A stretch of DNA of 64,000 nucleotides from Aphanomyces cochlioides (Eukaryota > Oomycota > Saprolegniomycetes > Saprolegniales > Verrucalvaceae), in the NCBI GenBank assembly GCA_019828595.1, contig JAHQRK010000035.1, forward strand, positions 1 to 64,000. Reading direction: 5' to 3'. The notes beneath the pieces are model-generated. The model was not told the DNA's origin. It made no database searches and was given only the letters and a program-made list of their open reading frames with translations. This document shows, piece after piece, positions 13,178 to 64,000 of the stretch. The position numbers and the translations under genes are program-made. Position 1 is the first letter of the stretch; every line of letters begins with the position of its first letter.

Positions 13178-15354
13178 TTATATCCAAAGTCTGACGTGGC
13201 GAGCTGGAAAGGGCTTTTGAGTCTCGCGAGACGGAATATCGTCTGACACACACTGTGAATACCTCGTTAGCTCGGTTTCAAAGCGTAGTGCACGCGGATA
13301 GGCTTTTCTCGGAGGCTCGATGTTGAGAGATGCATCGTCGTCATCGCTTTCTCCACTTACACCCAATCGCACTGGAATCTCGTCGTCTGAGTCGCCATCT
13401 CCCGGCTGCGTCGGCTTTGTTGGGTTGTACAAATACTCGCGCTTTTGGTAGAAGCTTGGATCTACAGGATCCTTGCTCCCTTGATTCGCGTATATGAACG
13501 CAAGCATCTCTACTTTGCTTGGATCAAGTCTATTTCGATTTTTGCTGTGGATGAATCCGTGAATGCTCCATGAGCGTTCACTTGAAGCTGAAGATGTTGG
13601 TATGCTGAAAAGTCGTTGAGCGAAGAGTGATAGATCTGTGTAATCGGTGGAGATCCACCAATGTGTAGGGCTCTTCGTGCGGTTTCCATTCAGCACTTCA
13701 ATGGGCCATTGATCCTTCTTGGCAACAAAGTTCTCCAGCTCTTTTTTGAAATTCTTGAGTCTCTTGTCCATGTATCCAACCTTCTCTGCAATGACAGGGG
13801 CGGCATCGATAGCAAGACATTTATCACCTGGCATGAATTCATGCAGACCTTTTGTTGGATCCAGGAGAAAGGACACAAGCATCACAGGCGTGTGGAAGCT
13901 CTTCCAGCGAGAGTGGATCACTTCCAAGATTTCCACTTGGACCTCATTGCGCTCTTCTTGAGTTCCATAGGCAGGATCAGTTAGCATACTCTTAAATTGC
14001 TCATAAACCATAGACCCAAAGCTTTTATCGCTCTCAAGGATTCCAAGTGCCTTGGATATTGGTTCAGTATAGCTCAAGACATGCTTGGCCTGGTGCCAGA
14101 ATGACGCATCAGCGAGGATCTCCGTAACTTCAGAAAGCTTGTCTTTGGAGTGTCCATTTTTGTAGCGCGAAATAAAATCTTCATCGCTGAAGGTGGCGTC
14201 CAAAACAACTTGATTTCGCACGACATTCCCAATGCATTTTTCGCTCGAGTACCAGCGAGTCGACACGGGGAGAGACAGAGCTCGACGGGGCTGCCCGCGT
14301 GGAATTGAGAGCTTCTGTTGTTGTCGAATCCGAAAGGGTTAAGCCGTGCGCTTCTTTACAAACTTGGTCAGTGCCTTTGACTTGGCCAGAACATCATGAA
14401 ATATGCCTGATTCAAAATGTGAAGCTCTTGCCAAGCTTTGGGCATCACTGAAGCATTGTCTGTGGCAACACAACAAACCTTGCGGCTACCGCAAGCTCGT
14501 GCTATATCATTAATGACACCGCGTAATTTCTTGCTTATTTTAGTAGTACCATGAGCCGCGTCTTCCGTTCACACGGACGACCAAAACATCGGACGCATTT
14601 TCGGCGTCACCACCATGAAGTTGACGACATAGTTGTTGCTGGGGTCAGTCCAACCATCCGTTACCACAGAGTGATAGCGTTGTATCTGAAGATGCTCAAT
14701 GACTGACTTTCGTTCCAAGAGGTAAACCTTTCCCAGAAGGTCCCCACCGACTCGCTCTCGTGTTGGCATCTGGAACTGAGGCGCGTAACGCTGCATGAAA
14801 AGTGAAAAATACTCGTTTTCAACTGCTCGGAACGGAAGTCCCATGCTGTGGATGACGTTTGCTAAGTCAAGAGCAAATTGATTTTGATCAGGCTCAGATT
14901 TAACCTTGTCGCTTGGGGTTGTAAGACTAGTGCGTCGTGATTTCCGTGGTGTAAATATGCCTCCTAATTTTTCGGAGGTTTTGCGTCGTCGTTTGGATTC
15001 AGCTGCCGTCCATAAGGCCTTGATTGGAATTTCAGTGTATTCACACGCAATGACATGACTTATTAGACGTTGTGCTTGAGCGTTCTTTTTTAGGTAGCCG
15101 CATGCCTTGCAGCGCACATCGGGGTGCTGCTTGACGTGTGCCTTTCGCTCTGTCACTGTTTCGAATAGAGCCCAAACATCGCTCACTAGGCGCGCCAAGC
15201 GTGGCTGCTGAGACTGGCGATTGATTTCACTGCGAGATGCCGTGTTTGAATGAGATAGCGTTGACTGAGTTTGCATTTCTGTGAGAACGGAAGTCCCGAA
15301 ATGTCTGAGCTTCATCGTCTTTCGCCCCGAACATTCAAATTCTGTTGTGCACAC
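13178..15354 (-). pseudogene. hAT transposase, copy 2
   Basis: The N-terminal frame (15354-14569) carries a BED-like zinc finger (CKACGYLKK ... HVIAC) and the DUF659-type signature DGWTDPSNNYVV. It stops at TGA 14566-14568, but homology continues in frame (TEDAAHGTTKISKK ... ATDNASVMPKAWQ). About 95 bp around the GCAAH motif is deleted at about 14421. A second in-frame stop (TAA, about 14336) precedes the C-terminal frame (14266-13178). That frame contains STRWYSS and the hAT dimerisation signature SSASSERSWSIHGFIHSKN. It is a dead copy, but the better preserved of the two. Confidence 0.85.
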
Positions 15355-19396: not shown

Positions 19397-22300
19397 GTAT
19401 GCGATAAGAGCCGTCGTGGACTGACAGTCTGTGTGTAGAATGTTAGGTGCGACCTTAAGTACTGTGCCATGTCGAGTCCAGATCGAAGACTCCACATCAC
19501 TTGTTTCAATCCTTCAGACCTTGCAGGCGGATCAAAACTCGATGCTGGCCCATTCGCATGCGAGTCTTGTAGACGTAAAGAAGTGGAGTGGGGTTGCTGG
19601 CGACAAATTGTTTGACACGCTGTTTGTGTTTCAACAGATGGACTCTGCGCCGACGCGACGTGCAGTCAGGCAACATACAGACGTTTTGAATGCGTCCACG
19701 CACTACGCGTTCGAACTCGAACTATGTGTTGTAGACTCTAGCGTGTTTGCTAGCGCGTCAATTGACATATCCGTCCTGTCGTCCACCCATGCTCGATTGA
19801 TTTTGGAAGAGTTCAAATTTACTTTGAGTCAAGTTTGTGCTGTGATGGCGTCTGACGGCACACCTGCGGCGTTGTGGAATTTGTCTCCAGTTCAAGATGA
19901 AATGATTCGATCGTCATGCTTCGGTCCAGTGGCATCCGTTCCATACGAATTAGTGCATCACGCGTTTGAAGAGAGGGCCGTGCGAAAGCCTGATTTGGTC
20001 GCGGTCGAGTACGAAGACAAGTCCATTACATACGGAGAGATGAATCACCAAGCAACCGTGCTGGCGAGTCGGTTGGTGTCGTTGGGAGTGGGTGTCGGCA
20101 GTCGCGTAGCAGTGTTGATGGAACGATGTTTGGAGTTTCCGATTGGCTTGTTGGCCGTGCTCAAAGCTGGTGGTTCCATGATGCCTCTTGACGCTAGCTT
20201 TCCCGTGAATCGATTGAGTTTTATGTTGTCGGACGCGAGCGCGTCAGAGGTGGTGACGACGGAAGAGTATCGTGGTCAAGTGGAATCCTTGGAGTTGGCA
20301 ATTCCGGTGGTGTATTTCAGCTCGAGTGAATTGGCGTTGGAGTCGGTGGTACCAAGTATATTGAATGAGGCGACCCGTCATGACGAGGCATACGTTGTGT
20401 ACACATCCGGATCGACCGGACGACCCAAAGGTGTACCCGTGCTGCACCAAAGTGTTATGAACACAATTGCGTTCTCGTTTGACGAAATGTTCGCCGAAGG
20501 TTTGAAGGTTGCTCAGTTGTTATCAATTGCATTCGATGGCTGCCAATTTGACATTTGGAAGGTTCTCTCGAATGGTTCCACTTTGGTATTATGTGGAGAT
20601 GATATTCGCGTTGGTATTGCCAAGGCAAGTTGTCTCATTTGTACACCAACTGCTCTGAGCGCACTGGACGAGGCAAGAAACTATCCGAATCTTCAGTTTG
20701 TAGGTGTCGCCGGTGAGCAACTTCCGCTGTCGCTGAAAACTCAATGGGAGCAGCAAGTTGTTCTATTGAACAAATACGGTCCTTCTGAATGTGCCATTCA
20801 AACACACGAGTGCAAGATGGACCCCGATGCGCCTGTCACGATCGGCCATCCCATGCAAAACGTCAACTCGTACATCTTGGACGAGAACATGCGTCCAGTG
20901 CCAGTGGGAGTCGTGGGTGAGATATACCTTGGTGGTATTTGTGTCTCTCCAGGCTACATCAATCTACCCGACCAAACGGCGGAGCGATTCGTAGGCGATC
21001 CATTTGTGTCCGGCGGAGGACGCATGTTTCGAACGGGCGACTATGGTCGGTTGCTTCCGAATGGCCACTTTGAGGTGCACGGACGAAAGGACAGCCAAGT
21101 CAAGTTGAAGGGATATCGTATCGAACTGGAAGAAATTGGCGAGGCCATGATGCGCCACCCACAAGTAACGGCTGCTGCTGCCATTGTCAAAGATCATACA
21201 CATCTCGTGGGTTTCTTTACTCCAGCGAATGTGGATGTGGACGAGTTGCGGGAATTGGTGGCGTCGCACTTGCCAGTGTATATGGTCCCTGCAGTGTGGA
21301 TGGGACTCGAATCCATGCCTCAAAACGTGAGTGGCAAGACGGACCGGTTGGCACTGGAAGCCATGAATGTCGTGGTTCAAGTGGAGTCGTTGCAGACAGA
21401 GGCAGAGAAGCGGATGGCAGAAGTGTGGGCTCAAGTTCTTGCAGTTGATATTTCACAGATTGGTCCGTCGACTTCCTTTTTTGCTCTTGGAGGAGATTCT
21501 ATCTCTGCTATTCGTCTTGTTGCCAAAGCAAAACACGTCGGGTTCAAACTCACGAGTGCTTTGGTTATGAAGAATGCGAGTCTCGCGAGCATGGTTCGTG
21601 TGGCAAAACATGAAGAAGTTGTGCTTGCTGTAATTTCAGATGACATCCATGGTGAGGTCCCATTGACACCAATTCAATACGCCATGTTCGAGCATCCATG
21701 GAAAAACATCAACTACTGGAATTTGTCGATGACGTTGAAGCCTCGTAATTCTCTTGACCAAGCCAAGCTTGAAGACGCGGTTTCTGCTTTAATCGAGCAC
21801 CATGACGTGCTTCGAACACGATTTTATCATGACATGGACAAAGGTTGGCACCAAATGATTCTACCAAAAGCCAACAGTGGCCCGCTGAATGTGCGTTTCG
21901 TTCACGTTGATTTCGATGACTTACGCTCGGCAATTCTTGACGTGGAACAGTCGTTGAGTTTGACCGACGGACCGATTTATGCCGTAACAGTGTTTCTTAC
22001 TCCAGAAAACGAACAGTACTTGCAATTTACTGCTCATCATGCAGTAATGGATCTCGTGTCATGGCGAATTCTTGTTGACGATTTAGAGAGTCTATTGTGT
22101 GGGAAGCAACTAGATGCAAAATCGATGTCCTTCAAGGCATGGTCCGAGCTACTGACTGCAAAAGCACTTGACTGGGATGGCTCTGCATGGGATGAGTACA
22201 TGTGTGATGACGTGGAACCCCCTTCTCATTCGAGGTATGCACTCCTATGTTTCCACAACTGTGAATATCTTTGTAGCCCTCCTACACACACAATTCGCTC

Positions 22301-25300
22301 ATCTGCAGTTTTGGACGAGAGCACGACAAATAAATTGGATCTTGCCAATACAAAATATGGGACGAATGTGCAAGAAGTAGCACTCGCTGCGCTGACAGAA
22401 GCGCTGGCTGAGCTACGGTCCAACAGGAGTGGATCAAAGTTTGCAGTCATGCTTGAAAGTCACGGTCGTGAGCCGTGGGCTGGTGATATCGATATCACGA
22501 GTACTGTCGGATGGTTTACGTGTGAATACCCCGTAATGTTTACTCCCACGAGCGAGATAGGCGATATGCTGCTCCAAGTGAAGCAAAAACTCCGGTCAGT
22601 GCCCCACAAAGGATTGTCCTATGGTGCGATCAAATATTTGGTTCCTTTATCAGAATCAACAAAAAAGATCAAAACCCATCGACATCACAATATTTCGTTC
22701 AACTACACTGGTCGCTTCCAAGAAATCAATGCCGAAGAAGGATATTTCAAAATTGCAAATGACATTTCTGTACCGCAGTTCGCCGACGACGAAGCACCTC
22801 TGTCACCTGGAAACCTCTTGTTGTCTCATGAAAGTGGCCAGCTAGTTTTAATGGCCGCGATGGCAGATTGGCAATTTTCATCGTCAGAATTGGAGACGTG
22901 GTGGATCTGTGGATCACTTGGATGCATCGTATTGTCGACCATTGTTTGGATCCATCAACAATTGGAGGTCGGACTCTGTACGATTTACCTCTTCTTGGTT
23001 CCATGTCTGTCGTGAAAGATGTTGAGACTGAACTGCTCGAAACACTCCATCTGCGACCAAGCGATGTGGAGGATATTTACCCTGTGACACCGCTGCAGTC
23101 AGGCTTCCTGTGGGCTATGTTGCAAGACCCTTCCGAGTACGTATTGCAATCGGCTATTGATATTCGAGGGGATTTTGACTTCGTTCGATTTAAATCTTGC
23201 TGGCAAGAATTGACACTACAAACCGATATATTGCGCACAGTGTTTGTGTCGACCACTCATGGCATTTTCCAGGCAGTGACGAAAGACGATTTGACCGAGT
23301 GTCAAATGCTCGACGAGGTTTGGTCGTTTGAAACGTTAGAAGAGAATTCAGAAAGCTATTTCTCTTTGGATCGCCAACGGGGTTTCTCGCTTGCGAGTCG
23401 ATCATTTCAAAGGTTCTGCGGTGTTCGAGTATCAGGTACGGATTTTCTCTTTGCAGACGGGAGTGATCATGTTCGTAGACGGCAGGCTACGTATCTTTTG
23501 GACGAGTCATCATTCTGTGTCGGACGGATGGTCGTCTCCAATCCTTCTGAGTAATTTTATGTCGTTATGCTACGGCGAGAAATTGCAGACTCAGCACGTA
23601 CCATTTAAAAATCACATCGAGTGGATGGTCGCACAAGACACAGAAACTAGCAAATTGTTCTGGAGAGACACTATGAGACACGTGGACGAAACAGCCCCTC
23701 TGTTACTTCCTAAGCCGATGGATCTCAGTAAATCTTCTGCCAAATACTCCACGTTTAGAAATGTCGTACATTTACCCCAAATGAGAGAAGTGTGCAAATC
23801 ACTTGGCACGACCCCGAGCACGGTATTTCGCGCGGCTTGGGCTCTGGTCTTACAGCAATATACTCGACGCGAGTATGTGAAATTTGGGTCTGTTGTTTCA
23901 GGACGAGACTCCGACGTTGAAGGAATCGACAGGTACAATTTATTCATTTCTCAATATTTATATAAGTTTCTTGTAGAATGATTGGGGCCACCATCAACAC
24001 AATTCCAATACTAGTGCATGTTCCACCAACATCTGATGTGGCACAGATCATTTCTAGTGTGCATGACTACTCGGTTAACTTAGTCCACCACGGTCATTGC
24101 AGCATTTTGGACATCAAAGCTTGGGCAGATGTGAAAACATCTCATGATCTGTTTGAGACTATTATGGTCTATGAAAACTATCCTAGCGTCGATTCTCCCC
24201 AGTCGAATCCCGCTCATTTTCCATGGATTTCATAGGAAGGGACGAGTACACTGATGCAAAGCTATCCATTGCAATTATACCCACGGAAGAAAACTACGGT
24301 ATCCACATTTCCTACAAAAATGGAGATACATGCCCAACAATTATTCAGATGCTCGCAGCACGGTTCATCGATGTAACAGCGAAGATAGCATCTTTAGATT
24401 GGATGTCTTCAGGTGTGTCTGATCTCGACAAGCCTCAGGAATACGAGTCATCCGTTATCGTATCGAGCTCGTATGGACCTACAGCTCCATTGCCATATGA
24501 ATTATTACATCAAGCGTTTGAAGAGAGGGCCGTGCGAAAGCCTGATTTGGTCGCGGTCGAGTACGAAGACAAGTCCATTACATACGGAGAGATGAATCAC
24601 CAAGCAACCGTGCTGGCGAGTCGGTTGGTGTCGTTGGGAGTGGGTGTCGGCAGTCGCGTAGCAGTGTTGATGGAACGATGTTTGGAGTTTCCGATTGGCT
24701 TGTTGGCCGTGCTCAAAGCTGGTGGTTCCATGATGCCTCTTGACGCTAGCTTTCCCGTGAATCGATTGAGTTTTATGTTGTCGGACGCGAGCGCGTCAGA
24801 GGTGGTGACGACGGAAGAGTATCGTGGTCAAGTGGAATCTTTGCAGTTGGCAATTCCGGTGGTGTATTTCAGCTCGAGTGAATTGGCGTTGGAGTCGGTG
24901 GTGCCGAGTATATTGAATGAGGCGACCCGTCATGACGAGGCATACGTTGTGTACACTTCGGGATCGACCGGACGACCCAAAGGCGTTCCAGTGCTCCACG
25001 AAGGGGCGGTAAATTGTATCGAATTTGATCTGGGAGACATGTATATATCTGAAGGATTGCGCATGATGCAGTTCCGTGCGATTAGTAGCGATGTCTTTGA
25101 ATGGGAAGTTTGGAAGGCCTTTAGTCGAGGAGCCAGTCTTGTTTTCCGTTCCGAAAATCTATTTGAGACATTGAGGACGGTCGACATTTTGTCGTGTACT
25201 CCAACTGGATTGTCATTGCTAGGCAATCCAAATCATTTTCCGAAGTTAAAGCTCGTCGCTGTGGGTGGAGAAGTTCTGTCGTCAGCCCTGAAAGAGTTAT

Positions 25301-28300
25301 GGTCTCAACACGTTGTCTTGACGAATTGTTATGGTCCCTCGGAGTGCGCCATTCAAACACACGAGTGCAAGATGGACCCCGATGCGCCTGTCACGATCGG
25401 CCATCCCATGCAAAACGTCAACTCGTACATCTTGGACGAGAACATGCGTCCAGTGCCAGCGGGAGTCGTGGGTGAGATATACCTTGGTGGTATTTGTGTC
25501 TCTCCAGGCTACATCAATCTACCCGACCAAACGGCGGAGCGATTCGTAGGCGATCCATTTGTGTCCGGCGGAGGACGCATGTTTCGAACGGGCGACTATG
25601 GTCGGTTGCTTCCGAATGGCCACTTTGAGGTGCACGGACGAAAGGACAGCCAAGTCAAGTTGAAGGGATATCGTATCGAACTGGAAGAAATTGGCGAGGC
25701 CATGATGCGCCACCCACAAGTAACGGCTGCAGTTGCCATTGTCAAAGACCATACACATCTCGTGGGTTTCTTTACTCCAGCGAATGTGGATGTGGACGAG
25801 TTGCGGGAATTGGTGGCGTCGCACTTGCCAGTGTATATGGTCCCTGCAGTGTGGATGGGACTCGAATCCATGCCTCAAAACGTGAGTGGCAAGACGGACC
25901 GGTTGGCACTGGAAGCCATGAATGTCGTGGTTCAAGTGGAGTCGTTGCAGACAGAGGCAGAGAAGCGGATGGCAGAAGTGTGGGCTCAAGTTCTTGCAGT
26001 TGATATTTCACAGATTGGTCCGTCGACTTCCTTTTTTGCTCTTGGAGGAGATTCTATCTCTGCTATTCGTCTTGTTGCCAAAGCAAAACACGTCGGGTTC
26101 AAACTCACGAGTGCTTTGGTTATGAAGAATGCGAGTCTCGCGAGCATGGTTCGTGTGGCAAAACATGAAGAAGTTGTGCTTGCTGTAATTTCAGATGACA
26201 TCCATGGTGAGGTCCCATTGACACCAATTCAATACGCCATGTTCGAGCATCCATGGAAAAACATCAACTACTGGAATTTGTCGATGACGTTGAAGCCTCG
26301 TAATTCTCTTGACCAAGCCAAGCTTGAAGACGCGGTTTCTGCTTTAATCGAGCACCATGACGTGCTTCGAACACGATTTTATCATGACATGGACAAAGGT
26401 TGGCACCAAATGATTCTACCAAAAGCCAACAGTGGCCCGCTGAATGTGCGTTTCGTTCACGTTGATTTCGATGACTTACGCTCGGCAATTCTTGACGTGG
26501 AACAGTCGTTGAGTTTGACCGACGGACCGATTTATGCCGTAACAGTGTTTCTTACTCCAGAAAACGAACAGTACTTGCAATTTACTGCTCATCATGCAGT
26601 AATGGATCTCGTGTCATGGCGAATTCTTGTTGACGATTTAGAGAGTCTATTGTGTGGGAAGCAACTAGATGCAAAATCGATGTCCTTCAAGGCATGGTCC
26701 GAGCTACTGACTGCAAAAGCACTTGACTGGGATGGCTCTGCATGGGATGAGTACATGTGTGATGACGTGGAACCCCCTTCTCATTCGAGGTATGCACTCC
26801 TATGTTTCCACAACTGTGAATATCTTTGTAGCCCTCCTACACACACAATTCGCTCATCTGCAGTTTTGGACGAGAGCACGACAAATAAATTGGATCTTGC
26901 CAATACAAAATATGGGACGAATGTGCAAGAAGTAGCACTCGCTGCGCTGACAGAAGCGCTGGCTGAGCTACGGTCCAACAGGAGTGGATCAAAGTTTGCA
27001 GTCATGCTTGAAAGTCACGGTCGTGAGCCGTGGGCTGGTGATATCGATATCACGAGTACTGTCGGATGGTTTACGTGTGAATACCCCGTAATGTTTACTC
27101 CCACGAGCGAGATAGGCGATATGCTGCTCCAAGTGAAGCAAAAACTCCGGTCAGTGCCCCACAAAGGATTGTCCTATGGTGCGATCAAATATTTGGTTCC
27201 TTTATCAGAATCAACAAAAAAGATCAAAACCCATCGACATCACAATATTTCGTTCAACTACACTGGTCGCTTCCAAGAAATCAATGCCGAAGAAGGATAT
27301 TTCAAAATTGCAAATGACATTTCTGTACCGCAGTTCGCCGACGACGAAGCACCTCTGTCACCTGGAAACCTCTTGTTGTCTCATGAAAGTGGCCAGCTAG
27401 TTTTAATGGCCGCGATGGCAGATTGGCAATTTTCATCGTCAGAATTGGAGACGTGGATGGATCTGTGGATCACTTGGATGCATCGTATTGTCGACCATTG
27501 TTTGGATCCATCAACAATTGGAGGTCGGACTCTGTACGATTTACCTCTTCTTGGTTCCATGTCTGTCGTGAAAGATGTTGAGACTGAACTGCTCGAAACA
27601 CTCCATCTGCGACCAAGCGATGTGGAGGATATTTACCCTGTGACACCGCTGCAGTCAGGCTTCCTGTGGGCTATGTTGCAAGACCCTTCCGAGTACGTAT
27701 TGCAATCGGCTATTGATATTCGAGGGGATTTTGACTTCGTTCGATTTAAATCTTGCTGGCAAGAATTGACACTACAAACCGATATATTGCGCACAGTGTT
27801 TGTGTCGACCACTCATGGCATTTTCCAGGCAGTGACGAAAGACGATTTGACCGAGTGTCAAATGCTCGACGAGGTTTGGTCGTTTGAAACGTTAGAAGAG
27901 AATTCAGAAAGCTATTTCTCTTTGGATCGCCAACGGGGTTTCTCGCTTGCGAGTCGATCATTTCAAAGGTTCTGCGGTGTTCGAGTATCAGGTACGGATT
28001 TTCTCTTTGCAGACGGGAGTGATCATGTTCGTAGACGGCAGGCTACGTATCTTTTGGACGAGTCATCATTCTGTGTCGGACGGATGGTCGTCTCCAATCC
28101 TTCTGAGTAATTTTATGTCGTTATGCTACGGCGAGAAATTGCAGACTCAGCACGTACCATTTAAAAATCACATCGAGTGGATGGTCGCACAAGACACAGA
28201 AACTAGCAAATTGTTCTGGAGAGACACTATGAGACACGTGGACGAAACAGCCCCTCTGTTACTTCCTAAGCCGATGGATCTCAGTAAATCTTCTGCCAAA

Positions 28301-52300: not shown

Positions 52301-55300
52301 CATGTTCGAGCATCCATGGAAAAACATCAACTACTGGAATTTGTCGATGACGTTGAAGCCTCGTAATTCTCTTGACCAAGCCAAGCTTGAAGACGCGGTT
52401 TCTGCTTTAATCGAGCACCATGACGTGCTTCGAACACGATTTTATCATGACATGGACAAAGGTTGGCACCAAATGATTCTACCAAAAGCCAACAGTGGCC
52501 CGCTGAATGTGCGTTTCGTTCACGTTGATTTCGATGACTTACGCTCGGCAATTCTTGACGTGGAACAGTCGTTGAGTTTGACCGACGGACCGATTTATGC
52601 CGTAACAGTGTTTCTTACTCCAGAAAACGAACAGTACTTGCAATTTACTGCTCATCATGCAGTAATGGATCTCGTGTCATGGCGAATTCTTGTTGACGAT
52701 TTAGAGAGTCTATTGTGTGGGAAGCAACTAGATGCAAAATCGATGTCCTTCAAGGCATGGTCCGAGCTACTGACTGCAAAAGCACTTGACTGGGATGGCT
52801 CTGCATGGGATGAGTACATGTGTGATGACGTGGAACCCCCTTCTCATTCGAGGTATGCACTCCTATGTTTCCACAACTGTGAATATCTTTGTAGCCCTCC
52901 TACACACACAATTCGCTCATCTGCAGTTTTGGACGAGAGCACGACAAATAAATTGGATCTTGCCAATACAAAATATGGGACGAATGTGCAAGAAGTAGCA
53001 CTCGCTGCGCTGACAGAAGCGCTGGCTGAGCTACGGTCCAACAGGAGTGGATCAAAGTTTGCAGTCATGCTTGAAAGTCACGGTCGTGAGCCGTGGGCTG
53101 GTGATATCGATATCACGAGTACTGTCGGATGGTTTACGTGTGAATACCCCGTAATGTTTACTCCCACGAGCGAGATAGGCGATATGCTGCTCCAAGTGAA
53201 GCAAAAACTCCGGTCAGTGCCCCACAAAGGATTGTCCTATGGTGCGATCAAATATTTGGTTCCTTTATCAGAATCAACAAAAAAGATCAAAACCCATCGA
53301 CATCACAATATTTCGTTCAACTACACTGGTCGCTTCCAAGAAATCAATGCCGAAGAAGGATATTTCAAAATTGCAAATGACATTTCTGTACCGCAGTTCG
53401 CCGACGACGAAGCACCTCTGTCACCTGGAAACCTCTTGTTGTCTCATGAAAGTGGCCAGCTAGTTTTAATGGCCGCGATGGCAGATTGGCAATTTTCATC
53501 GTCAGAATTGGAGACGTGGATGGATCTGTGGATCACTTGGATGCATCGTATTGTCGACCATTGTTTGGATCCATCAACAATTGGAGGTCGGACTCTGTAC
53601 GATTTACCTCTTCTTGGTTCCATGTCTGTCGTGAAAGATGTTGAGACTGAACTGCTCGAAACACTCCATCTGCGACCAAGCGATGTGGAGGATATTTACC
53701 CTGTGACACCGCTGCAGTCAGGCTTCCTGTGGGCTATGTTGCAAGACCCTTCCGAGTACGTATTGCAATCGGCTATTGATATTCGAGGGGATTTTGACTT
53801 CGTTCGATTTAAATCTTGCTGGCAAGAATTGACACTACAAACCGATATATTGCGCACAGTGTTTGTGTCGACCACTCATGGCATTTTCCAGGCAGTGACG
53901 AAAGACGATTTGACCGAGTGTCAAATGCTCGACGAGGTTTGGTCGTTTGAAACGTTAGAAGAGAATTCAGAAAGCTATTTCTCTTTGGATCGCCAACGGG
54001 GTTTCTCGCTTGCGAGTCGATCATTTCAAAGGTTCTGCGGTGTTCGAGTATCAGGTACGGATTTTCTCTTTGCAGACGGGAGTGATCAATGTTCGTAGAC
54101 GGCAGGCTACGTATCTTTTGGACGAGTCATCATTCTGTGTCGGACGGATGGTCGTCTCCAATCCTTCTGAGTAATTTTATGTCGTTATGCTACGGCGAGA
54201 AATTGCAGACTCAGCACGTACCATTTAAAAATCACATCGAGTGGATGGTCGCACAAGATACAGAAACTAGCAAATTGTTCTGGAGAGACACTATGAGACA
54301 CGTGGACGAAACAGCCCCTCTGTTACTTCCTAAGCCGATGGATCTCAGTAAATCTTCTGCCAAATACTCCACGTTTAGAAATGTCGTACATTTACCCCAA
54401 AAGAGAGAAGTGTGCAAATCACTTGGCACGACCCCGAGCACGGTATTTCGCGCGGCTTGGGCTCTGGTCTTACAGCAATATACTCGACGCGAGTATGTGA
54501 AATTTGGGTCTGTTGTTTCAGGACGAGACTCCGACGTTGAAGGAATCGACAGGTACAATTTATTCATTTCTCAATATTTATATAAGTTTCTTGTAGAATG
54601 ATTGGGGCCACCATCAACACAATTCCAATACTAGTGCATGTTCCACCAACATCTGATGTGGCACAGATCATTTCTAGTGTGCATGACTACTCGGTTAACT
54701 TAGTCCACCACGGTCATTGCAGCATTTTGGACATCAAAGCTTGGGCAGATGTGAAAACATCTCATGATCTGTTTGAGACTATTATGGTCTATGAAAACTA
54801 TCCTAGCGTCGATTCTCCCCAGTCGAATCCCGCCCATTTTCCATGGATTTCATAGGAAGGGACGAGTACACTGATGCAAAGCTATCCATTGCAATTATAC
54901 CCACGGAAGAAAATTTCGATGTTCACATCTCCTACAAAAATAGAGTGATATGTTCAAGTACCGTTCAGATGCTCGCAGCACGGTTCATCGATGTAACAGC
55001 GAAGATGGCATCTTTAGATTGGATGTCTTCAGGTGTGTCTGATCTCGACAAGCCTCAGGAATACGAGTCATCCGTTATCGTATCGAGCTCGTATGGACCT
55101 ACAGCTCCATTGCCATATGAATTATTACATCAAGCGTTTGAAGAGAGGGCCGTGCGAAAGCCTGATTTGGTCGCGGTCGAGTACGAAGACAAGTCCATTA
55201 CATACGGAGAGATGAATCACCAAGCAACCGTGCTGGCGAGTCGGTTGGTGTCGTTGGGAGTGGGTGTCGGCAGTCGCGTAGCAGTGTTGATGGAACGATG

Positions 55301-58300
55301 TTTGGAGTTTCCGATTGGCTTGTTGGCCGTGCTCAAAGCTGGTGGTTCCATGATGCCTCTTGACGCTAGCTTTCCCGTGAATCGATTGAGTTTTATGTTG
55401 TCGGACGCGAGCGCGTCAGTGGTGGTGACGACGGAAGAGTATCGTGGTCAAGTGGAATCTTTGGAGTTGGCAATTCCGGTGGTGTATTTCAGCTCGAGTG
55501 AATTGGCGTTGGAGTCGGTGGTACCAAGTATATTGAATGAGGCGACCCGTCATGACGAGGCATACGTTGTGTACACATCCGGATCGACCGGACGACCCAA
55601 AGGTGTACCCGTGCTGCACCAAAGTGTTATGAACACAATTGCGTTCTCGTTTGACGAAATGTTCGCCGAAGGTTTGAAGGTTGCTCAGTTGTTATCAATT
55701 GCATTCGATGGCTGCCAATTTGACATTTGGAAGGTTCTCTCGAATGGTTCCACTTTGGTATTATGTGGAGATGATATTCGCGTTGGTATTGCCAAGGCAA
55801 GTTGTCTCATTTGTACACCAACTGCACTGAGCGCACTGGACGAGGCAAGTAACTATCCGAATCTTCAGTTTGTAGGTGTCGCCGGTGAGCAACTTCCGCT
55901 GTCCCTGAAAACTCAATGGGAGCAGCAAGTTGTTCTATTGAACAAATACGGTCCTTCTGAATGTGCCATTCAAACACACGAGTGCAAGATGGACCCCGAT
56001 GCGCCTGTCACGATCGGCCATCCCATGCAAAACGTCAACTCGTACATCTTGGACGAGAACATGCGTCCAGTGCCAGTGGGAGTCGTGGGTGAGATATACC
56101 TTGGTGGTATTTGTGTCTCTCCAGGCTACATCAATCTACCCGACCAAACGGCGGAGCGATTCGTAGGCGATCCATTTGTGTCCGGCGGAGGACGCATGTT
56201 TCGAACGGGCGACTATGGTCGGTTGCTTCCGAATGGCCACTTTGAGGTGCACGGACGAAAGGACAGCCAAGTCAAGTTGAAGGGATATCGTATCGAACTA
56301 GAAGAAATTGGCGAGGCCATGATGCGCCACCCACAAGTAACGGCTGCTGCTGCCATTGTCAAAGACCATACACATCTCGTGGGTTTCTTTACTCCAGCGA
56401 ATGTGGATGTGGACGAGTTGCGGGAATTGGTGGCGTCGCACTTGCCAGTGTATATGGTCCCTGCAGTGTGGATGGGACTCGAATCCATGCCTCAAAACGT
56501 GAGTGGCAAGACGGACCGGTTGGCACTGGAAGCCATGAATGTCGTGGTTCAAGTGGAGTCGTTGCAGACAGAGGCAGAGAAGCGGATGGCAGAAGTGTGG
56601 GCTCAAGTTCTTGCAGTTGATATTTCACAGATTGGTCCGTCGACTTCCTTTTTTTCTCTTGGAGGAGATTCTATCTCTGCTATTCGTCTTGTTGCCAAAG
56701 CAAAACACGTCGGGTTCAAACTCACGAGTGCTTTGGTTATGAAGAAAGCGAGTCTCGCGAGCATGGTTCGTGTGGCAAAACATGAAGAAGTTGTGCTTGC
56801 TGTAATTTCAGATGACATCCATGGTGAGGTCCCATTGACACCAATTCAATACGCCATGTTCGAGCATCCATGGAAAAACATCAACTACTGGAATTTGTCG
56901 ATGACGTTGAAGCCTCGTAATTCTCTTGACCAAGCCAAGCTTGAAGACGCGGTTTCTGCTTTAATCGAGCACCATGACGTGCTTCGAACACGATTTTATC
57001 ATGACATGGACAAAGGTTGGCACCAAATGATTCTACCAAAAGCCAACAGTGGCCCGCTGAATGTGCGTTTCGTTCACGTTGATTTCGATGACTTACGCTC
57101 GGCAATTCTTGACGTGGAACAGTCGTTGAGTTTGACCGACGGACCGATTTATGCCGTAACAGTGTTTCTTACTCCAGAAAACGAACAGTACTTGCAATTT
57201 ACTGCTCATCATGCAGTAATGGATCTCGTGTCATGGCGAATTCTTGTTGACGATTTAGAGAGTCTATTGTGTGGGAAGCAACTAGATGCAAAATCGATGT
57301 CCTTCAAGGCATGGTCCGAGCTACTGACTGCAAAAGCACTTGACTGGGATGGCTCTGCATGGGATGAGTACATGTGTGATGACGTGGAACCCCCTTCTCA
57401 TTCGAGGTATGCACTCCTATGTTTCCACAACTGTGAATATCTTTGTAGCCCTCCTACACACACAATTCGCTCATCTGCAGTTTTGGACGAGAGCACGACA
57501 AATAAATTGGATCTTGCCAATACAAAATATGGGACGAATGTGCAAGAAGTAGCACTCGCTGCGCTGACAGAAGCGCTGGCTGAGCTACGGTCCAACAGGA
57601 GTGGATCAAAGTTTGCAGTCATGCTTGAAAGTCACGGTCGTGAGCCGTGGGCTGGTGATATCGATATCACGAGTACTGTCGGATGGTTTACGTGTGAATA
57701 CCCCGTAATGTTTACTCCCACGAGCGAGATAGGCGATATGCTGCTCCAAGTGAAGCAAAAACTCCGGTCAGTGCCCCACAAAGGATTGTCCTATGGTGCG
57801 ATCAAATATTTGGTTCCTTTATCAGAATCAACAAAAAAGATCAAAACCCATCGACATCACAATATTTCGTTCAACTACACTGGTCGCTTCCAAGAAATCA
57901 ATGCCGAAGAAGGATATTTCAAAATTGCAAATGACATTTCTGTACCGCAGTTCGCCGACGACGAAGCACCTCTGTCACCTGGAAACCTCTTGTTGTCTCA
58001 TGAAAGTGGCCAGCTAGTTTTAATGGCCGCGATGGCAGATTGGCAATTTTCATCGTCAGAATTGGAGACGTGGATGGATCTGTGGATCACTTGGATGCAT
58101 CGTATTGTCGACCATTGTTTGGATCCATCAACAATTGGAGGTCGGACTCTGTACGATTTACCTCTTCTTGGTTCCATGTCTGTCGTGAAAGATGTTGAGA
58201 CTGAACTGCTCGAAACACTCCATCTGCGACCAAGCGATGTGGAGGATATTTACCCTGTGACACCGCTGCAGTCAGGCTTCCTGTGGGCTATGTTGCAAGA

Positions 58301-61300
58301 CCCTTCCGAGTACGTATTGCAATCGGCTATTGATATTCGAGGGGATTTTGACTTCGTTCGATTTAAATCTTGCTGGCAAGAATTGACACTACAAACCGAT
58401 ATATTGCGCACAGTGTTTGTGTCGACCACTCATGGCATTTTCCAGGCAGTGACGAAAGACGATTTGACCGAGTGTCAAATGCTCGACGAGGTTTGGTCGT
58501 TTGAAACGTTAGAAGAGAATTCAGAAAGCTATTTCTCTTTGGATCGCCAACGGGGTTTCTCGCTTGCGAGTCGATCATTTCAAAGGTTCTGCGGTGTTCG
58601 AGTATCAGGTACGGATTTTCTCTTTGCAGACGGGAGTGATCAATGTTCGTAGACGGCAGGCTACGTATCTTTTGGACGAGTCATCATTCTGTGTCGGACG
58701 GATGGTCGTCTCCAATCCTTCTGAGTAATTTTATGTCGTTATGCTACGGCGAGAAATTGCAGACTCAGCACGTACCATTTAAAAATCACATCGAGTGGAT
58801 GGTCGCACAAGATACAGAAACTAGCAAATTGTTCTGGAGAGACACTATGAGACACGTGGACGAAACAGCCCCTCTGTTACTTCCTAAGCCGATGGATCTC
58901 AGTAAATCTTCTGCCAAATACTCCACGTTTAGAAATGTCGTACATTTACCCCAAATGAGAGAAGTGTGCAAATCACTTGGCACGACCCCGAGCACGGTAT
59001 TTCGCGCGGCTTGGGCTCTGGTCTTACAGCAATATACTCGACGCGAGTATGTGAAATTTGGGTCTGTTGTTTCAGGACGAGACTCCGACGTTGAAGGAAT
59101 CGACAGGTACAATTTATTCATTTCTCAATATTTATATAAGTTTCTTGTAGAATGATTGGGGCCACCATCAACACAATTCCAATACTAGTGCATGTTCCAC
59201 CAACATCTGATGTGGCACAGATCATTTCTAGTGTGCATGACTACTCGGTTAACTTAGTCCACCACGGTCATTGCAGCATTTTGGACATCAAAGCTTGGGC
59301 AGATGTGAAAACATCTCATGATCTGTTTGAGACTATTATGGTCTATGAAAACTATCCTAGCGTCGATTCTCCCCCAGTCGAATCCCGCCCATTTTCCATG
59401 GATTTCATAGGAAGGGACGAGTACACTGATGCAAAGCTATCCATTGCAATTATACCCACGGAAGAAAATTTCGATGTTCACATCTCCTACAAAAATAGAG
59501 TGATATGTTCAAGTACCGTTCAGATGCTCGCAGCACGGTTCATCGATGTAACAGCGAAGATGGCATCTTTAGATTGGATGTCTTCAGGTGTGTCTGATCT
59601 CGACAAGCCTCAGGAATACGAGTCATCCGTTATCGTATCGAGCTCGTATGGACCTACAGCTCCATTGCCATATGAATTATTACATCAAGCGTTTGAAGAG
59701 AGGGCCGTGCGAAAGCCTGATTTGGTCGCGGTCGAGTACGAAGACAAGTCCATTACATACGGAGAGATGAATCACCAAGCAACCGTGCTGGCGAGTCGGT
59801 TGGTGTCGTTGGGAGTGGGTGTCGGCAGTCGCGTAGCAGTGTTGATGGAACGATGTTTGGAGTTTCCGATTGGCTTGTTGGCCGTGCTCAAAGCTGGTGG
59901 TTCCATGATGCCTCTTGACGCTAGCTTTCCCGTGAATCGATTGAGTTTTATGTTGTCGGACGCGAGCGCGTCAGTGGTGGTGACGACGGAAGAGTATCGT
60001 GGTCAAGTGGAATCTTTGGAGTTGGCAATTCCGGTGGTGTATTTCAGCTCGAGTGAATTGGCGTTGGAGTCGGTGGTACCAAGTATATTGAATGAGGCGA
60101 CCCGTCATGACGAGGCATACGTTGTGTACACATCCGGATCGACCGGTCGACCCAAAGGTGTACCCGTGCTGCACCAAAGTGTTGTGAACACAATTGTCTT
60201 TTCTCAACGTCAGGCCTTTGCTGAGGAGAAGAAAATTGGACAAATTTTCTCGGTTGGATTTGATGGATGTCAACATGATATGTGGTGCAGTCTTTCCTAT
60301 GGTGCCACTCTGTTTCTGCGAACTGAAAATTTGTTGGACACAGTGGCACGTGTTGATAGCATTTTGATTACCCCTACTGCACTGTCCAGTTTGGGATCAC
60401 CGTCAAATTATGCTGGATTGAAGTTTGTCAGCGTCGGCGGTGAGCAAATCACTTCAACGTTGAAAGATCACTGGGCATCTCATGTTAAATTTATGAACAA
60501 GTACGGACCAACAGAATGCGCAATAGTGACGCACGAAGTTCAACTGGATGAAGGTGCACAGATAACAATCGGAAAACCACTTCAAAACATCAACTCGTAC
60601 ATCTTGGACGAGAACATGCGTCCAGTGCCAGTGGGAGTCGTGGGTGAGATATACCTTGGTGGTATTTGTGTCTCTCCAGGCTACATCAATCTACCCGACC
60701 AAACGGCGGAGCGATTCGTAGACGATCCATTTGTGTCCGGCGGAGGACGCATGTTTCGAACGGGCGACTATGGTCGGTTGCTTCCGAATGGCCACTTTGA
60801 GGTGCACGGACGAAAGGACAGCCAAGTCAAGTTGAAGGGATATCGTATCGAACTGGAAGAAATTGGCGAGGCCATGATGCGCCACCCACAAGTAACGGCT
60901 GCTGCTGCCATTGTCAAAGACCATACACATCTCGTGGGTTTCTTTACTCCAGCGAATGTGGATGTGGACGAGTTGCGGGAATTGGTGGCGTCGCACTTGC
61001 CAGTGTATATGGTCCCTGCAGTGTGGATGGGACTCGAATCCATGCCTCAAAACGTGAGTGGCAAGACGGACCGGTTGGCACTGGAAGCCATGGATGTCGT
61101 GGTTCAAGTGGAATCCTTGGAAACAGAGACCGAAGTTCAGTTGGCTACTGTGTGGGCCAAGGTGCTCGAAGTCGACATCCGAGAAATTGGCCGAAACACG
61201 TCTTTCTATTCTTTGGGTGGCGACTCGCTGTCGGTCATCAAGGTAGTGGCAGCTTGCCGTCAAATTGGTCTAACCACTACGGTTTCGCAAATGTTGAAAG

Positions 61301-64000
61301 AGCCAACCCTGTCTCGTGCTGCTCTGCAGTGTGGCTTGGACACGGTGTTCGAGTGGCCAGCTGTCCAGTTGTCTGACCAAGTATTAAGAGACGTGACCCA
61401 AGAGTACGAGGTCCCTCTGGGTCTAGATGACTATGTGGTATACCCAGTGACACCACTGCAGGGCGGTATGTTGTATTCGACCATGACGAGTCGGTCGGCC
61501 TATGTGTTGCAGCAAACAATCGAGCTCGACACGGACATGACCTTCGATATGGTTGTCGATGGATACCGTCGACTTGCCCAGACACACGAAATTCTTCGAA
61601 CGACATTTGTGTTTCTCGAATCCGGATTGTTTCAAATTATTCGAAGCGACGTGGCTGGCCTCCCTGTCAAGGATGTATTCGTCCGTCGATTGGAAGATTA
61701 CTTGGAGGCCGATCTCGCCCGTGGGTTTGAACTTGGAGACTGGTACTTTGCTCGATTGTCCTTGGTCACGGATGAACTTGGCGCTTACGCGGTGCTGACG
61801 ATTCACCACACGCTGTATGATGGATGGTCCTTACCTTTGCTCATGTCCGACTTGGTGGATGCATTGCACGGCAAGTCTATTTCGCCTCGACCAAGTTTCC
61901 GAGCTTTGGTGGATTACATCCAAGCACAAGACGAGGAGAAGACACGCGCATTCTGGTCTACGACGTTGTCCGGAGCTATGCCATCGTTGATAGCACCTGG
62001 GAACAGCAAAATGGAATTTTTGGACGAGTCGAATCGAGCTCTCTCGTTTGAGTTACCCGCAATCGAGTTGGTTCAATGCGCAAAAGAGGCAGGAGTGACC
62101 ATGGCCACATTGACCAAGTTTGCATGGGCGGTCACCCTGCGCAAATTCTTGCGACAACGAGATGTTATCATGGGTCAAGTTGTATCGAATCGAAACATCC
62201 CGGTCAAAGGAATTGAGAGGTATGCAGATAAGAGCCGTCGTGGACTGACAGTCTGTGTGTAGAATGTTAGGTGCGACCTTAAGTACTGTGCCATGTCGAG
62301 TCCAGATCGAAGACTCCACATCACTTGTTTCAATCCTTCAGACCTTGCAGGCGGATCAAAACTCGATGCTGGCCCATTCGCATGCGAGTCTTGTAGACGT
62401 AAAGAAGTGGAGTGGGGTTGCTGGCGACAAATTGTTTGACACGCTGTTTGTGTTTCAACAGATGGACTCTGCGCCGACGCGACGTGCAGTCAGGCAACAT
62501 ACAGACGTTTTGAATGCGTCCACGCACTACGCGTTCGAACTCGAACTATGTGTTGTAGACTCTAGCGTGTTTGCTAGCGCGTCAATTGACATATCCGTCC
62601 TGTCGTCCACCCATGCTCGATTGATTTTGGAAGAGTTCAAATTTACTTTGAGTCAAGTTTGTGCTGTGATGGCGTCTGACGGCACACCTGCGGCGTTGTG
62701 GAATTTGTCTCCAGTTCAAGATGAAATGATTCGATCGTCATGCTTCGGTCCAGTGGCATCCGTTCCATACGAATTAGTGCATCACGCGTTTGAAGAGAGG
62801 GCCGTGCGAAAGCCTGATTTGGTCGCGGTCGAGTACGAAGACAAGTCCATTACATACGGAGAGATGAATCACCAAGCAACCGTGCTGGCGAGTCGGTTGG
62901 TGTCGTTGGGAGTGGGTGTCGGCAGTCGCGTAGCAGTGTTGATGGAACGATGTTTGGAGTTTCCGATTGGCTTGTTGGCCGTGCTCAAAGCTGGTGGTTC
63001 CATGATGCCTCTTGACGCTAGCTTTCCCGTGAATCGATTGAGTTTTATGTTGTCGGACGCGAGCGCGTCAGTGGTGGTGACGACGGAAGAGTATCGTGGT
63101 CAAGTGGAATCTTTGGAGTTGGCAATTCCGGTGGTGTATTTCAGCTCGAGTGAATTGGCGTTGGAGTCGGTGGTACCAAGTATATTGAATGAGGCGACCC
63201 GTCATGACGAGGCATACGTTGTGTACACATCAGGATCGACCGGACGACCCAAAGGTGTACCCGTGCTGCACCAAAGTGTTGTGAATACAATTGCGTTTTC
63301 ATATAAAGAAATGTTTGCTGAAGGGTTAAGAACGGCACAGTTGTTGTCGCTGTCATTTGATGGGTGTCAATTTGAAATCTGGAGTTCTTTGTCGAATGGA
63401 TCAACCATGGTTTTATGTGGTCCAAATATCTCACATGGCCTTGTTTCTGTGCAGAGCATAGTGAGCACTCCAACAGCACTAAGTGTCCTAGATGCCCTGA
63501 AATATCCAAGCTTAAAGTTTGTCGCTGTTGCTGGCGAGCAACTTCCGCTGTCGCTGAAAACTCAATGGGAGCAGCAAGTTGTTCTATTGAACAAATACGG
63601 TCCTTCTGAATGTGCCATTCAAACACACGAGTGCAAGATGGACCCCGATGCGCCTGTCACGATCGGCCATCCCATGCAAAACGTCAACTCGTACATCTTG
63701 GACGAGAACATGCGTCCAGTGCCAGTGGGAGTCGTGGGTGAGATATACCTTGGTGGTATTTGTGTCTCTCCAGGCTACATCAATCTACCCGACCAAACGG
63801 CGGAGCGATTCGTAGACGATCCATTTGTGTCCGGCGGAGGACGCATGTTTCGAACGGGCGACTATGGTCGGTTGCTTCCGAATGGCCACTTTGAGGTGCA
63901 CGGACGAAAGGACAGCCAAGTCAAGTTGAAGGGATATCGTATCGAACTAGAAGAAATTGGCGAGGCCATGATGCGCCACCCACAAGTAACGGCTGCTGCT
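16767..64000 (+). CDS. Giant multimodular NRPS gene (3' partial)
   Basis: At least thirteen modules are encoded without an intervening gene, joined by 24 introns of 42-44 nt. Domain order: A1-T-C-A2-T-E-C-A3-T-E-C-A4-T-E-C-A5-T-C-A6-T-C-A7-T-E-C-A8-T-C-A9-T-C-A10-T-E-C-A11-T-E-C-A12-T-C-A13. A domains show YVVYTSGSTGRPKG, YGPSE, FRTGDYGR and GRKDSQVKLKGYRIE. T domains show LGGDS with the phosphopantetheine Ser. C domains show HHxxxDG. E domains show HHxxxD, ESHGRE and FNYTGRF. No ketosynthase, methyltransferase or thioesterase is seen. The gene starts without a C domain, as loading modules do, and runs off the window. Six one-base indels break the frame in modules 2, 3, 4, 8, 10 and 11; if they are real, the gene is damaged. 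Each module is described separately. Confidence 0.9.
19397..19438 (+). other. Intron class i (first of six), in the C domain at GIER/MLG
   Basis: GTATGC...GTGTAG, phase 2, joins GGIER to MLGATLSTVP, a continuous C-domain sequence; retention gives an immediate stop. It is 42 nt here. The other copies (36161-36203, 39258-39300, 46915-46957, 50012-50054, 62220-62262) are 43 nt, with one extra A after GTATGC. Confidence 0.9.
19439..23932 (+). CDS. NRPS module 2: A(b)-T-E, then C domain
   Basis: This completes the first C domain (MLGATLSTVP), then A2 with cassette b (AFDGCQFDIW, NKYGPSE; code by eye DGFIVVKIQK, unassigned). T2 has Ser at 21498-21500 in LGGDSIS. The E domain has HHAVMDLVSW at 22035, ESHGRE and FNYTGRF, so the residue should become D. 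Next comes a C domain with HHSVSDG at about 23508. Introns at 22235-22276 and 23436-23478 are removed. One A is missing between 22901 and 22902 relative to every sister module (ACGTGG_TGGATC). This shifts the frame at the end of the E domain: either an assembly error or a true break. Confidence 0.85.
22235..22276 (+). other. Intron class E (first of six), inside the E domain
   Basis: GTATGC...TTTGTAG, 42 nt, phase 2. It is a multiple of three and has no in-frame stop, so an ORF caller reads through it as 14 extra residues (start YALLCFHNC). Size and splice sites match the obligatory introns. The other copies are 26790-26831, 31346-31387, 42100-42141, 52853-52894 and 57407-57448, all identical in length. 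Confidence 0.75.
23436..23478 (+). other. Intron class ii (first of six), just before HHSVSDG
   Basis: GTACGG...TTCGTAG, phase 1. Splicing joins FCGVRVS to DGRLRIFWTSHHS, restoring a normal C-domain core. The same class is 43 nt in 27992-28034 and 32548-32590, and 44 nt (one extra A in GATCAATG) in 43302-43345, 54055-54098 and 58609-58652. The extra base is harmless only if the stretch is intronic, which supports the call. Confidence 0.85.
23933..23976 (+). other. Intron class iii (first of six), C domain at GIDR/MIG
   Basis: GTACAATTTATT...TTGTAG, 44 nt, AT-rich, phase 2. It joins GIDR to MIGATINTIP at the same protein position as class i, although the intron sequences differ. The other copies are 28489-28532, 33045-33088, 43800-43843, 54553-54596 and 59107-59150. 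Confidence 0.9.
23977..28488 (+). CDS. NRPS module 3: C end, A(a)-T-E, then C domain
   Basis: The C-domain tail starts MIGATINTIP. A C4 tract at 24197-24200 (five C in intact copies) shifts the frame between SVDSP and MDFIGRDEY. A3 carries cassette a, the same by-eye code as module 1. T Ser is at 26053-26055 (LGGDSIS), and the E-domain HHAVMD is at 26590. The following C domain is split by introns 27992-28034 and 28489-28532. The whole unit repeats at 4,556 bp spacing as module 4, with only a couple of differences (Gln to Gly in VESL_LAIP). This is an epimerising extension module. Confidence 0.85.
28533..33044 (+). CDS. NRPS module 4: C end, A(a)-T-E, then C domain
   Basis: Tandem duplicate of module 3 at 4,556 bp. 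It carries the same C4 tract (28753-28756) that breaks the frame, cassette a, T Ser at 30609-30611, and the E-domain HHAVMD at 31146. Introns lie at 31346-31387 and 32548-32590. Near-identity with module 3, including the frame break, means a very recent duplication or a shared assembly artefact. If active, it adds a second D-configured a residue. Confidence 0.85.
33089..36160 (+). CDS. NRPS module 5: C end, A(a)-T, then C domain
   Basis: First intact reading of the C-domain tail: the C tract is five bases (33309-33313), so SVDSPPVESRPFSMDFIG reads through. A5 has cassette a. The T domain is of the other type, LGGDSLSVIK with Ser at 35166-35168, and passes straight to a C domain with HHTLYDG. 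There is no E domain, so an L residue is expected. This begins the 10.75-kb block repeated in modules 8-10. Confidence 0.9.
36204..39257 (+). CDS. NRPS module 6: C end, A(b)-T, then C domain
   Basis: The C tail starts MLGATLSTVP. A6 has cassette b (FDGCQFD), but its upstream flank (ACTTCGGG, TGCCGAG) is the form found with cassette a. That places a recombination join between 37170 and 37200. T Ser is at 38263-38265 (LGGDSLS), then a C domain with HHTLYDG. The frame is clean. Same substrate code as module 2, but without an E domain, so the L form. Confidence 0.9.
39301..43799 (+). CDS. NRPS module 7: C end, A(c)-T-E, then C domain
   Basis: A7 carries a third cassette, c (40301-40617: VSDVFHWELW, TCTATGLS; by-eye code DVWTVVCIQK, unassigned). 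It then rejoins the cassette a sequence at TGGTCTCAACA. T Ser is at 41363-41365 (LGGDSIS), the E-domain HHAVMD is at 41900, and a DCL-type C domain with HHSVSDG follows. Introns lie at 42100-42141 and 43302-43345 (44-nt form). The frame is intact. Adds a D residue. Confidence 0.9.
43844..46914 (+). CDS. NRPS module 8: C end, A(a)-T, then C domain
   Basis: Counterpart of module 5 in the second copy of the 10.75-kb block. The C tract is C4 (44064-44067), so the frame breaks at the end of the C domain, unlike in module 5. A8 has cassette a, T Ser at 45920-45922 (LGGDSLS) and a C domain with HHTLYDG. A silent change (ACATTAACC for ACATTGACC, about 46806) shows that it is a real separate copy. Confidence 0.85.
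46958..50011 (+). CDS. NRPS module 9: C end, A(b)-T, then C domain
   Basis: Counterpart of module 6 (offset 10,754 bp). Cassette b, here with the flank ACATCCGG instead of ACTTCGGG, ASVVVTTEE instead of ASEVVTTEE, and Ser for Ala in SSELSLES. It is thus a different mosaic from module 6. T Ser is at 49017-49019. The frame is clean, with a C domain of the HHTLYDG type. Confidence 0.9.
50055..54552 (+). CDS. NRPS module 10: C end, A(c)-T-E, then C domain
   Basis: Counterpart of module 7. One C is missing at 50402-50403 (TCCACCATG against TCCACCCATG in five sisters), shifting the frame in the C-domain tail just before the A domain. Cassette c lies at 51053-51370. T Ser is at 52116-52118 with FFSLGGDSI in place of FFALGGDSI, and the E-domain HHAVMD is at 52653. 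Introns lie at 52853-52894 and 54055-54098. Adds a D residue if intact. Confidence 0.85.
54597..59106 (+). CDS. NRPS module 11: C end, A(b)-T-E, then C domain
   Basis: The C tract is C4 (54817-54820), breaking the frame. The C-domain tail has a diverged patch (ENFDVHISYKNRVICSSTV) in place of the ENYGIHISYKNG form of modules 3-5 and 8; module 12 shares it. A11 has cassette b with Ser for Arg (DEASNYP). T Ser is at 56670-56672, and the E-domain HHAVMD is at 57207. Introns lie at 57407-57448 and 58609-58652. An epimerising b module, like module 2. Confidence 0.85.
59151..62219 (+). CDS. NRPS module 12: C end, A(d)-T, then C domain
   Basis: The intact C5 tract (59371-59375) gives a clean frame. 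A12 has the most divergent cassette, d (60145-60590): VGFDGCQHDMW, ITPTALSS, NKYGPTECAIVT; by-eye code DGHLVVKIVK, unassigned. It returns to the common sequence at NINSYILDENM. T Ser is at 61225-61227 (LGGDSLS), then a C domain with HHTLYDG. No E domain. Confidence 0.9.
62263..64000 (+). CDS. NRPS module 13: C end and A(e), cut by window end
   Basis: The C tail is identical to those of modules 6 and 9. A13 has a fifth cassette, e (63255-63535: LSFDGCQFEIWSSLSNG; by-eye code DGFVVVKIQK). It joins cassette b sequence at GAGCAACTTCCGCTG, making it a b-related hybrid. The window ends after motif A8 (QVKLKGYRIELEEIG), before the T domain, so module type and gene end are unknown. Confidence 0.9.

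Follow-up and report, generated by a model that had tools for sequence, protein, structure and literature searches.

The first 64 kb of a contig of Aphanomyces cochlioides, an oomycete and the agent of sugar-beet root rot, carry most modules of a nonribosomal peptide synthetase (NRPS) gene in which the adenylation (A) domains are nearly identical in DNA on both sides of one sharply divergent core. This stretch, referred to here as the window, comprises positions 1 to 64,000 of contig JAHQRK010000035.1 (hereafter C29), which is 516 kb long in an assembly of 76.2 Mb and 94 contigs (GCA_019828595.1). We put the probability at about three in four that the gene is a 16-module NRPS of an oomycete evolving in concert, in which the A-domain frame is homogenised by gene conversion or unequal crossing-over and the cores are islands of heterology that are either spared or replaced whole.

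One frame and six cores

Taking the TSGSTG motif (A3) as the zero point of relative positions and the frame as the A domain outside the core, the mean DNA identity among the 16 modules in 50-bp windows was 0.95-1.00 at about -400 to 0, 0.54-0.65 over +48 to +348 and 0.97-1.00 over +448 to +948. A profile of the six core forms in 30-bp windows gave the same picture, with 0.96-1.00 from -420 to -30, 0.40-0.67 from +60 to +360 and 0.96-1.00 from +450 onward. The A-domain DNA is ~97-100% identical up to TSGSTG and again from about 400-470 bp beyond it, and the DNA of different core forms is 46-68% identical. In all 15 of the 15 form pairs the mismatches cluster in +26..+400 (Fisher p 3.7e-43 to 2.8e-106), with 94-185 mismatches at 369-375 core sites as against 3-38 at 905 frame sites; the five pairs that include form d carry 30-38 frame mismatches because the d cassette extends ~70 bp further. 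A sequence-only reading of this DNA had claimed that the A domains are near-identical around a single divergent core, and both the identity profile and the form pairs agree with it: the sliding-window check that it proposed returned one sharp dip between two plateaus near 100%, and the even spread of divergence that would have refuted it was not found, the mismatches being concentrated in the core. Pair by pair and in alignment columns, clustered mismatches set in between +2 and +59 and cease between +320 and +468; the 5' border of the core is placed in or directly after motif A3. The most divergent frame is that of module 1 (F1), which is 97.2-97.6% identical to the other frames.

The gene lies on the + strand from 16.77 kb and has 16 A domains, 13 of them inside the window and the last three beyond it, at 66.3, 70.9 and 74.0 kb of C29; correspondingly, the motif TSGSTGRPKG was counted 13 times in the window and 16 times on the + strand of the first 94 kb of the contig. 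In a Pfam search of seven open reading frames, six were NRPS pieces with A, thiolation (T) and condensation (C) domains, the Condensation, AMP-binding and PP-binding domains following one another in the module order of a C-A-T(-E) assembly line and the epimerisation (E) domains scoring as Condensation. Across the gene there are eight copies of HHTLYDG, seven of HHSVSDG and seven of the E-type motif HHAVMD, and the T domains have the carrier-serine motif GG(D/N)S. The gene starts with the A domain of module 1, with no C domain ahead of it in the open frame, and the last domain of module 16 is a T domain, after which the open frame reaches a stop near 75.2 kb without encoding a thioesterase. Rfam and tRNA scans gave no match. 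Stretches of more than 1 kb are near-identical between modules, and reads could in principle have been mis-joined within such identical frames, shuffling the cores on paper; the number and order of the modules rest on one assembly, and we regard an artefact of this kind as very improbable.

From module 1 to module 16 the forms follow the order a b a a a b c a b c b d e c f d, the sixth form (f) lying past the window. Within the window, with all features on the + strand and all borders approximate, form a occupies module 1, the start module (A domain 16767..18259, core 17330..17696), module 3 (24495..25910, core 24981..25347), module 4 (29051..30466, core 29537..29903), module 5 (33608..35023, core 34094..34460) and module 8 (44362..45777, core 44848..45214). 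Form b is found in modules 2 (19943..21358, core 20429..20792), 6 (36708..38123, core 37194..37557), 9 (47462..48877, core 47948..48311) and 11 (55115..56530, core 55601..55964), and form c in modules 7 (39805..41220, core 40291..40657) and 10 (50558..51973, core 51044..51410). Form d is in module 12 (59670..61085, core 60156..60589), where the 3' border lies ~70 bp beyond the others, and form e is in module 13 (62767..64000, core 63253..63613), which continues past the window. The sequence-only reading had recognised the five window forms, a-e, and all five of its module lists were correct; the cores are ~370 bp long, and that of d ~440 bp. The span that it drew started at the core of module 2, and so missed the core of module 1.

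Specificity positions were mapped by motif, using GrsA position numbers, and the correspondence was checked by an alignment with TycA and by the match range of 1amu. Forms a and c both give the code DVWCAGCIQ, with DGFCGAKIQ for b, DGHISGKIV for d, DGFSAAKIQ for e and DTLCAGCIQ for f, so that the six forms yield five codes across the gene and the five forms of the window yield four. Forms a and c, sharing all nine code residues, are only 59% identical in core DNA and may take the same amino acid; not every form need therefore alter the substrate, which qualifies the earlier claim that the exchange of cores changes it. Seven of the nine code positions (235, 236, 239, 278, 299, 301 and 322) are inside the core. 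The other two, 330 and 331, are at or past its 3' end except in d, and are I and Q in five of the six forms, only d differing; the idea that the core holds most of the substrate-lining positions from 235 to 331 is thus borne out for the seven and not for these two. On the GrsA index, amino-acid divergence starts at residue 205 (in DNA from about 198), and the core ends, depending on the pair, at about 303-333, or at about 352 in d.

Linkers and the movement of cores

Successive frames are separated by linkers of two types. The T-C(L) linker follows modules 1, 5, 6, 8, 9, 12, 13 and 15, and in the window it joins modules 1/2 (18264..19943), 5/6 (35028..36708), 6/7 (38128..39805), 8/9 (45782..47462), 9/10 (48882..50558) and 12/13 (61090..62767). 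The T-E-C(D) linker follows modules 2, 3, 4, 7, 10, 11 and 14, joining modules 2/3 (21363..24495), 3/4 (25915..29051), 4/5 (30471..33608), 7/8 (41225..44362), 10/11 (51978..55115) and 11/12 (56535..59670). The labels C(L) and C(D) were given by place relative to the E domain and not from a profile, NCBIfam having returned no C-domain subtype among its 25 best families. The domains are alike within each type (C 98-100%, E 99-100%, T 96-100%) and unlike between types (C 39-40%, T 49-53%), and the linker slot therefore behaves as the core slot does; the T domain of module 16 stands apart as a third type, 42-53% alike to the others. The prediction of near 100% identity everywhere outside the core consequently stood for the A-domain frame and failed for the C and T regions, which are 39-53% alike between types. 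The C(L) domains contain a short intron-like stretch (GTATG...GTAG) that is the same in eight copies except for one base in module 2, and the C(D) domains have an intron-like stretch of which the 3' end was inspected. The predicted product would be a peptide of ~16 residues, with its side chains set by the core slot and its D/L pattern set by the linker slot through the E domains of the seven modules that carry one.

The same order of linkers (E, E, none, none, E, none) is found in modules 3-8 and in modules 10-15, from 24.5 kb of the window to ~72 kb of C29, and the C(D) subtypes split into those of modules 3, 4, 5 and 8 and those of modules 11, 12 and 15. The two runs of modules are possibly the products of an old six-module block duplication.

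Of the 20 pairs of modules with the same form, 17 show no difference over the core stretch that was compared, and the three remaining pairs all include the b core of module 11, with 3 differences each; identical frames, by comparison, were seen in 0 of the 105 pairs of modules 2-16. Module 1 does not differ in its core from the other form-a modules, although its frame is 2.3-2.8% different. Cores b and d are found behind both C types, and a and b both with and without E, giving 11 combinations of core, C type and E in 16 modules. The A3 codons also differ within forms, those of module 6 being unlike those of the other b modules (2, 9 and 11) and those of module 16 unlike those of module 12, both d. 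Of 300 pairs of single-nucleotide polymorphisms in the frame, 35 showed all four gametes, and linked sites of the longer d cassette make up 13 of the 25 polymorphisms. Taken at the level of sequence, this distribution indicates that core copies have moved between modules. One could go further and envision an active two-slot cassette system, in which near-telomeric conversion by way of the constant frame would keep moving both the cores and the stereochemistry linkers between positions; we consider this a tentative proposal, with the odds rather against it.

Histories of cores and frames

A dip between identical flanks can have two origins: either cores were inserted into uniform modules, or old and unlike modules had all but their cores overwritten. 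The second is favoured by five results, which concern a sister locus, the synonymous divergence, the relative ages of cores and frames, the search for relatives of the cores, and a protein pair of A. euteiches. The first of these is a comparison between the NRPS locus of the window (X29, on C29) and its sister locus on contig C78 of this genome (Y78, at 0.86-0.92 Mb). Y78 has no plateau: in six of its domains the identity averages about 0.6 over the full length of the A domain (windows 0.31-0.80). The core identity of X29 is at the same level as that of these un-homogenised Y78 A domains, so that the flanks, and not the core, are the exceptional part of X29, and the modules of X29 are more alike among themselves than to their counterparts in related loci, as concerted evolution would have it. 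Between forms, the synonymous divergence (dS) is 0-0.03 in the frame and 1.6 or more in the core. The approximately unbiased (AU) test rejected a single X29 clade on the core data (p=0.0007) and, for an a-type group that was chosen after the identities had been seen, rejected a clade across two loci on the frame data (p=2e-5); the core phylogeny is incongruent with the frame phylogeny in both the trees and the AU tests. The cores are as old as the split of the loci or older, and the frames younger.

The dS values rule out pure purifying selection as the source of the pattern. In such a scenario, purifying selection on the frame and relaxed or diversifying selection on the core would have sufficed without any recombination, and it is true that the A-domain frame carries the C/A/T interfaces and that the dip covers the substrate pocket held by the core. 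Nevertheless, near-identity extends to the synonymous sites of the frame and to the putatively intron-bearing stretches, the mean frame identity in Y78 is merely 0.65 on protein, and the AU tests require different trees for core and frame.

The sequence-only reading had spoken of natural subdomain exchange, and the incongruent histories, the 5' border in the A3 region and the occurrence of b and d in two C contexts are all in keeping with it. These same features, the disagreement of the trees and the two contexts of b and d, together with sharp borders in the region of described bacterial A-core exchange (PMC7486941, PMC8097286), could also be read as import, with uniform duplicated modules having received foreign cores from other NRPS genes and changed their substrates. 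The part of the claim that would bring cores in from elsewhere did not fare as well. All six of the six cores were without a match of >74% DNA identity outside X29 in the 76-Mb assembly, the best reaching 74%, in a search that scores only the best candidates. The cores also diverge no more than ordinary A domains do, the flanks being what is unusual. Recent core exchange among the NRPS loci of this genome was ruled out by the same lack of a match of >74% in that best-candidate search. A further argument comes from A. euteiches, in which NRPS-like transcripts are reported (PMC2248709). The core of its protein P0013 reaches 0.98 on protein to C29f of A. cochlioides, and its frame is shared with A. 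euteiches P0017 (1.00 and 0.99), to which its core is only 0.66. The core of P0013 thus keeps its orthology across species and the frame does not, which favours overwriting. All in all, an import of foreign cores seems unlikely.

The interpretation that we prefer is concerted evolution of the frame, and the simplest mechanism to account for both spared and moved cores would be gene conversion or unequal crossing-over, which depends on homology. Conversion, unequal crossing-over or both would overwrite the A frame and the T, C and E domains, together with the putative introns, keeping the frame near-identical across the array and the T and C domains only within their own types. A tract entering from one flank would halt at the heterology of the core, where different forms are only about 50% alike; the borders themselves are seen, and the halting is the proposed mechanism. 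A tract that spans the core by way of its homologous flanks would replace it whole, an event type suggested by core copies that are identical although their module contexts and 5' junctions differ. What keeps the cores in their positions is presumed to be selection for the sequence of the peptide.

Several points weigh against this interpretation. The support from A. euteiches is that of a single pair of proteins, which belongs to a related locus (C29 244-262 kb) and not to X29, of which no A. euteiches ortholog was apparent among the best 120 of 7385 and the best 120 of 7616 hits. The two proteins, P0013 and P0017, could also stem from separate assemblies. A third A. euteiches protein, P0046, whose core is 0.94 to C29b, is without such sharing of the frame: its frame is 0.93/0.96 to P0013, 0.93/0.94 to P0017 and 0.90/0.97 to A. 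cochlioides, hence no closer to the former two than to A. cochlioides, and homogenisation there is incomplete. Only 105 columns went into the core tree, whose starred branches by themselves require no more than one change. Finally, donors may have been lost from this genome or be present in other species.

Elsewhere in the assembly, the A domains of Y78 (C78 855-925 kb, L012-L018) lie on both strands, and the pairs Y78+1/Y78-1 and Y78+2/Y78-2 have identical core rows and codes, which suggests that the first modules of Y78 form an inverted duplication. The A domains at C12 28.5 kb (L025), C30 485 kb (L032) and C78 2.66 Mb (L035 and L036) have an internal deletion or in-frame stops, and are probably decaying or intron-bearing copies.

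At the very start of the contig, positions 1-351 of the window consist of CCCAAACC repeated about 44 times, or (CCCCCAAA)n. This repeat is also found at the starts of contigs C1 and C3, on the other strand at C2 2.71 Mb, and also at C3 2.47 kb; the assembly has 613 forward and 555 reverse matches, with places known for the first matches listed, and these counts are without a control, the reversed pattern reading the same repeat. It looks like an unusual TTTGGGGG telomere, in which case the NRPS gene would be subtelomeric; the matches listed in a literature search on this repeat were unrelated work only. Between the repeat and the gene, on the - strand at 911-2839 and 13178-15354, lies what is left of two mobile sequences, a reverse transcriptase/RNase H/integrase element and a hAT-type transposase.

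Relation to known systems

The borders in use for A-core exchange since Crusemann et al. 2013 are K205 and A322 in GrsA numbering (PMC7486941). As in the hormaomycin type of exchange, the unit here lies inside the A domain, with divergence beginning at residue 205, and it is confined to the Acore between identical flanks in every form pair. Hormaomycin, however, is a bacterial case with one reported event (PMC8097286), whereas here a eukaryotic gene has 16 A domains with one frame and six cores, and it is the frame rather than the core that changed recently. The microcystin McyB and other bacterial cases (Baunach et al. 2021, PMC8097286) share with X29 recombination on a variable Acore that leaves the interfaces and Asub untouched, and A and C domains need not coevolve according to the same source, in the text of which the word 'eukaryot' is absent. 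The bacterial events described there took place between related clusters, often with a donor, whereas no donor was found here in the assembly, although a donor was not found for every bacterial event either. In the wollamide/desotamide system (Booth et al. 2022, PMC9205934), a recombinant region from A2 to A5/A6 likewise exchanges the pocket and leaves the C-A interface intact, but the system is bacterial and its parent lies elsewhere in the genome, in contrast to the long one-frame array within one gene that we describe.

For the homogenisation of modules, the closest likeness is the concerted evolution of polyketide synthases and NRPSs (Medema et al. 2014, PMC4256081), with cluster-specific branching of domains through internal recombination; the cases given there are the rapamycin family, daptomycin/A54145/CDA, syringopeptin and mycolactone, and the model includes domains that escape homogenisation by functional divergence. 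The unit in that work is the domain, whereas the part that escapes here is sharply bordered and lies within a single domain, in an oomycete gene that has putative introns. Module recombination and gene conversion have been proposed for fungal NRPSs (PMC2644324, PMC2823734), the genes of which tend toward subtelomeric regions (PMC2823734). Among the matches listed in our literature search, which covers few subscription journals, there was no paper on an oomycete NRPS with exchange of subdomains or homogenisation of modules. In the chytrid fungus Polyrhizophydium stewartii, we found NRPS A domains with the same pattern of constant frame and variable core on protein, and its rows form one starred group in the frame tree. 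Both processes are known in bacteria, and the locus is a clear eukaryotic case of them, with this parallel in a chytrid at the level of protein.

Swaps of A-domain parts by engineers are described as generally unsuccessful or at best inefficient (PMC7486941). The locus offers a natural series of six cores in one near-invariant frame, with borders that can be read almost to the base, and it separates two processes that look alike, the insertion of a core and the overwriting of everything else. The range of A-core exchange and module homogenisation, documented for bacteria in the work cited here, thereby comes to include an oomycete and, at the level of protein, a chytrid fungus. If the two-slot system were indeed active, one small set of parts should give peptides that are related but differ from isolate to isolate of the pathogen.
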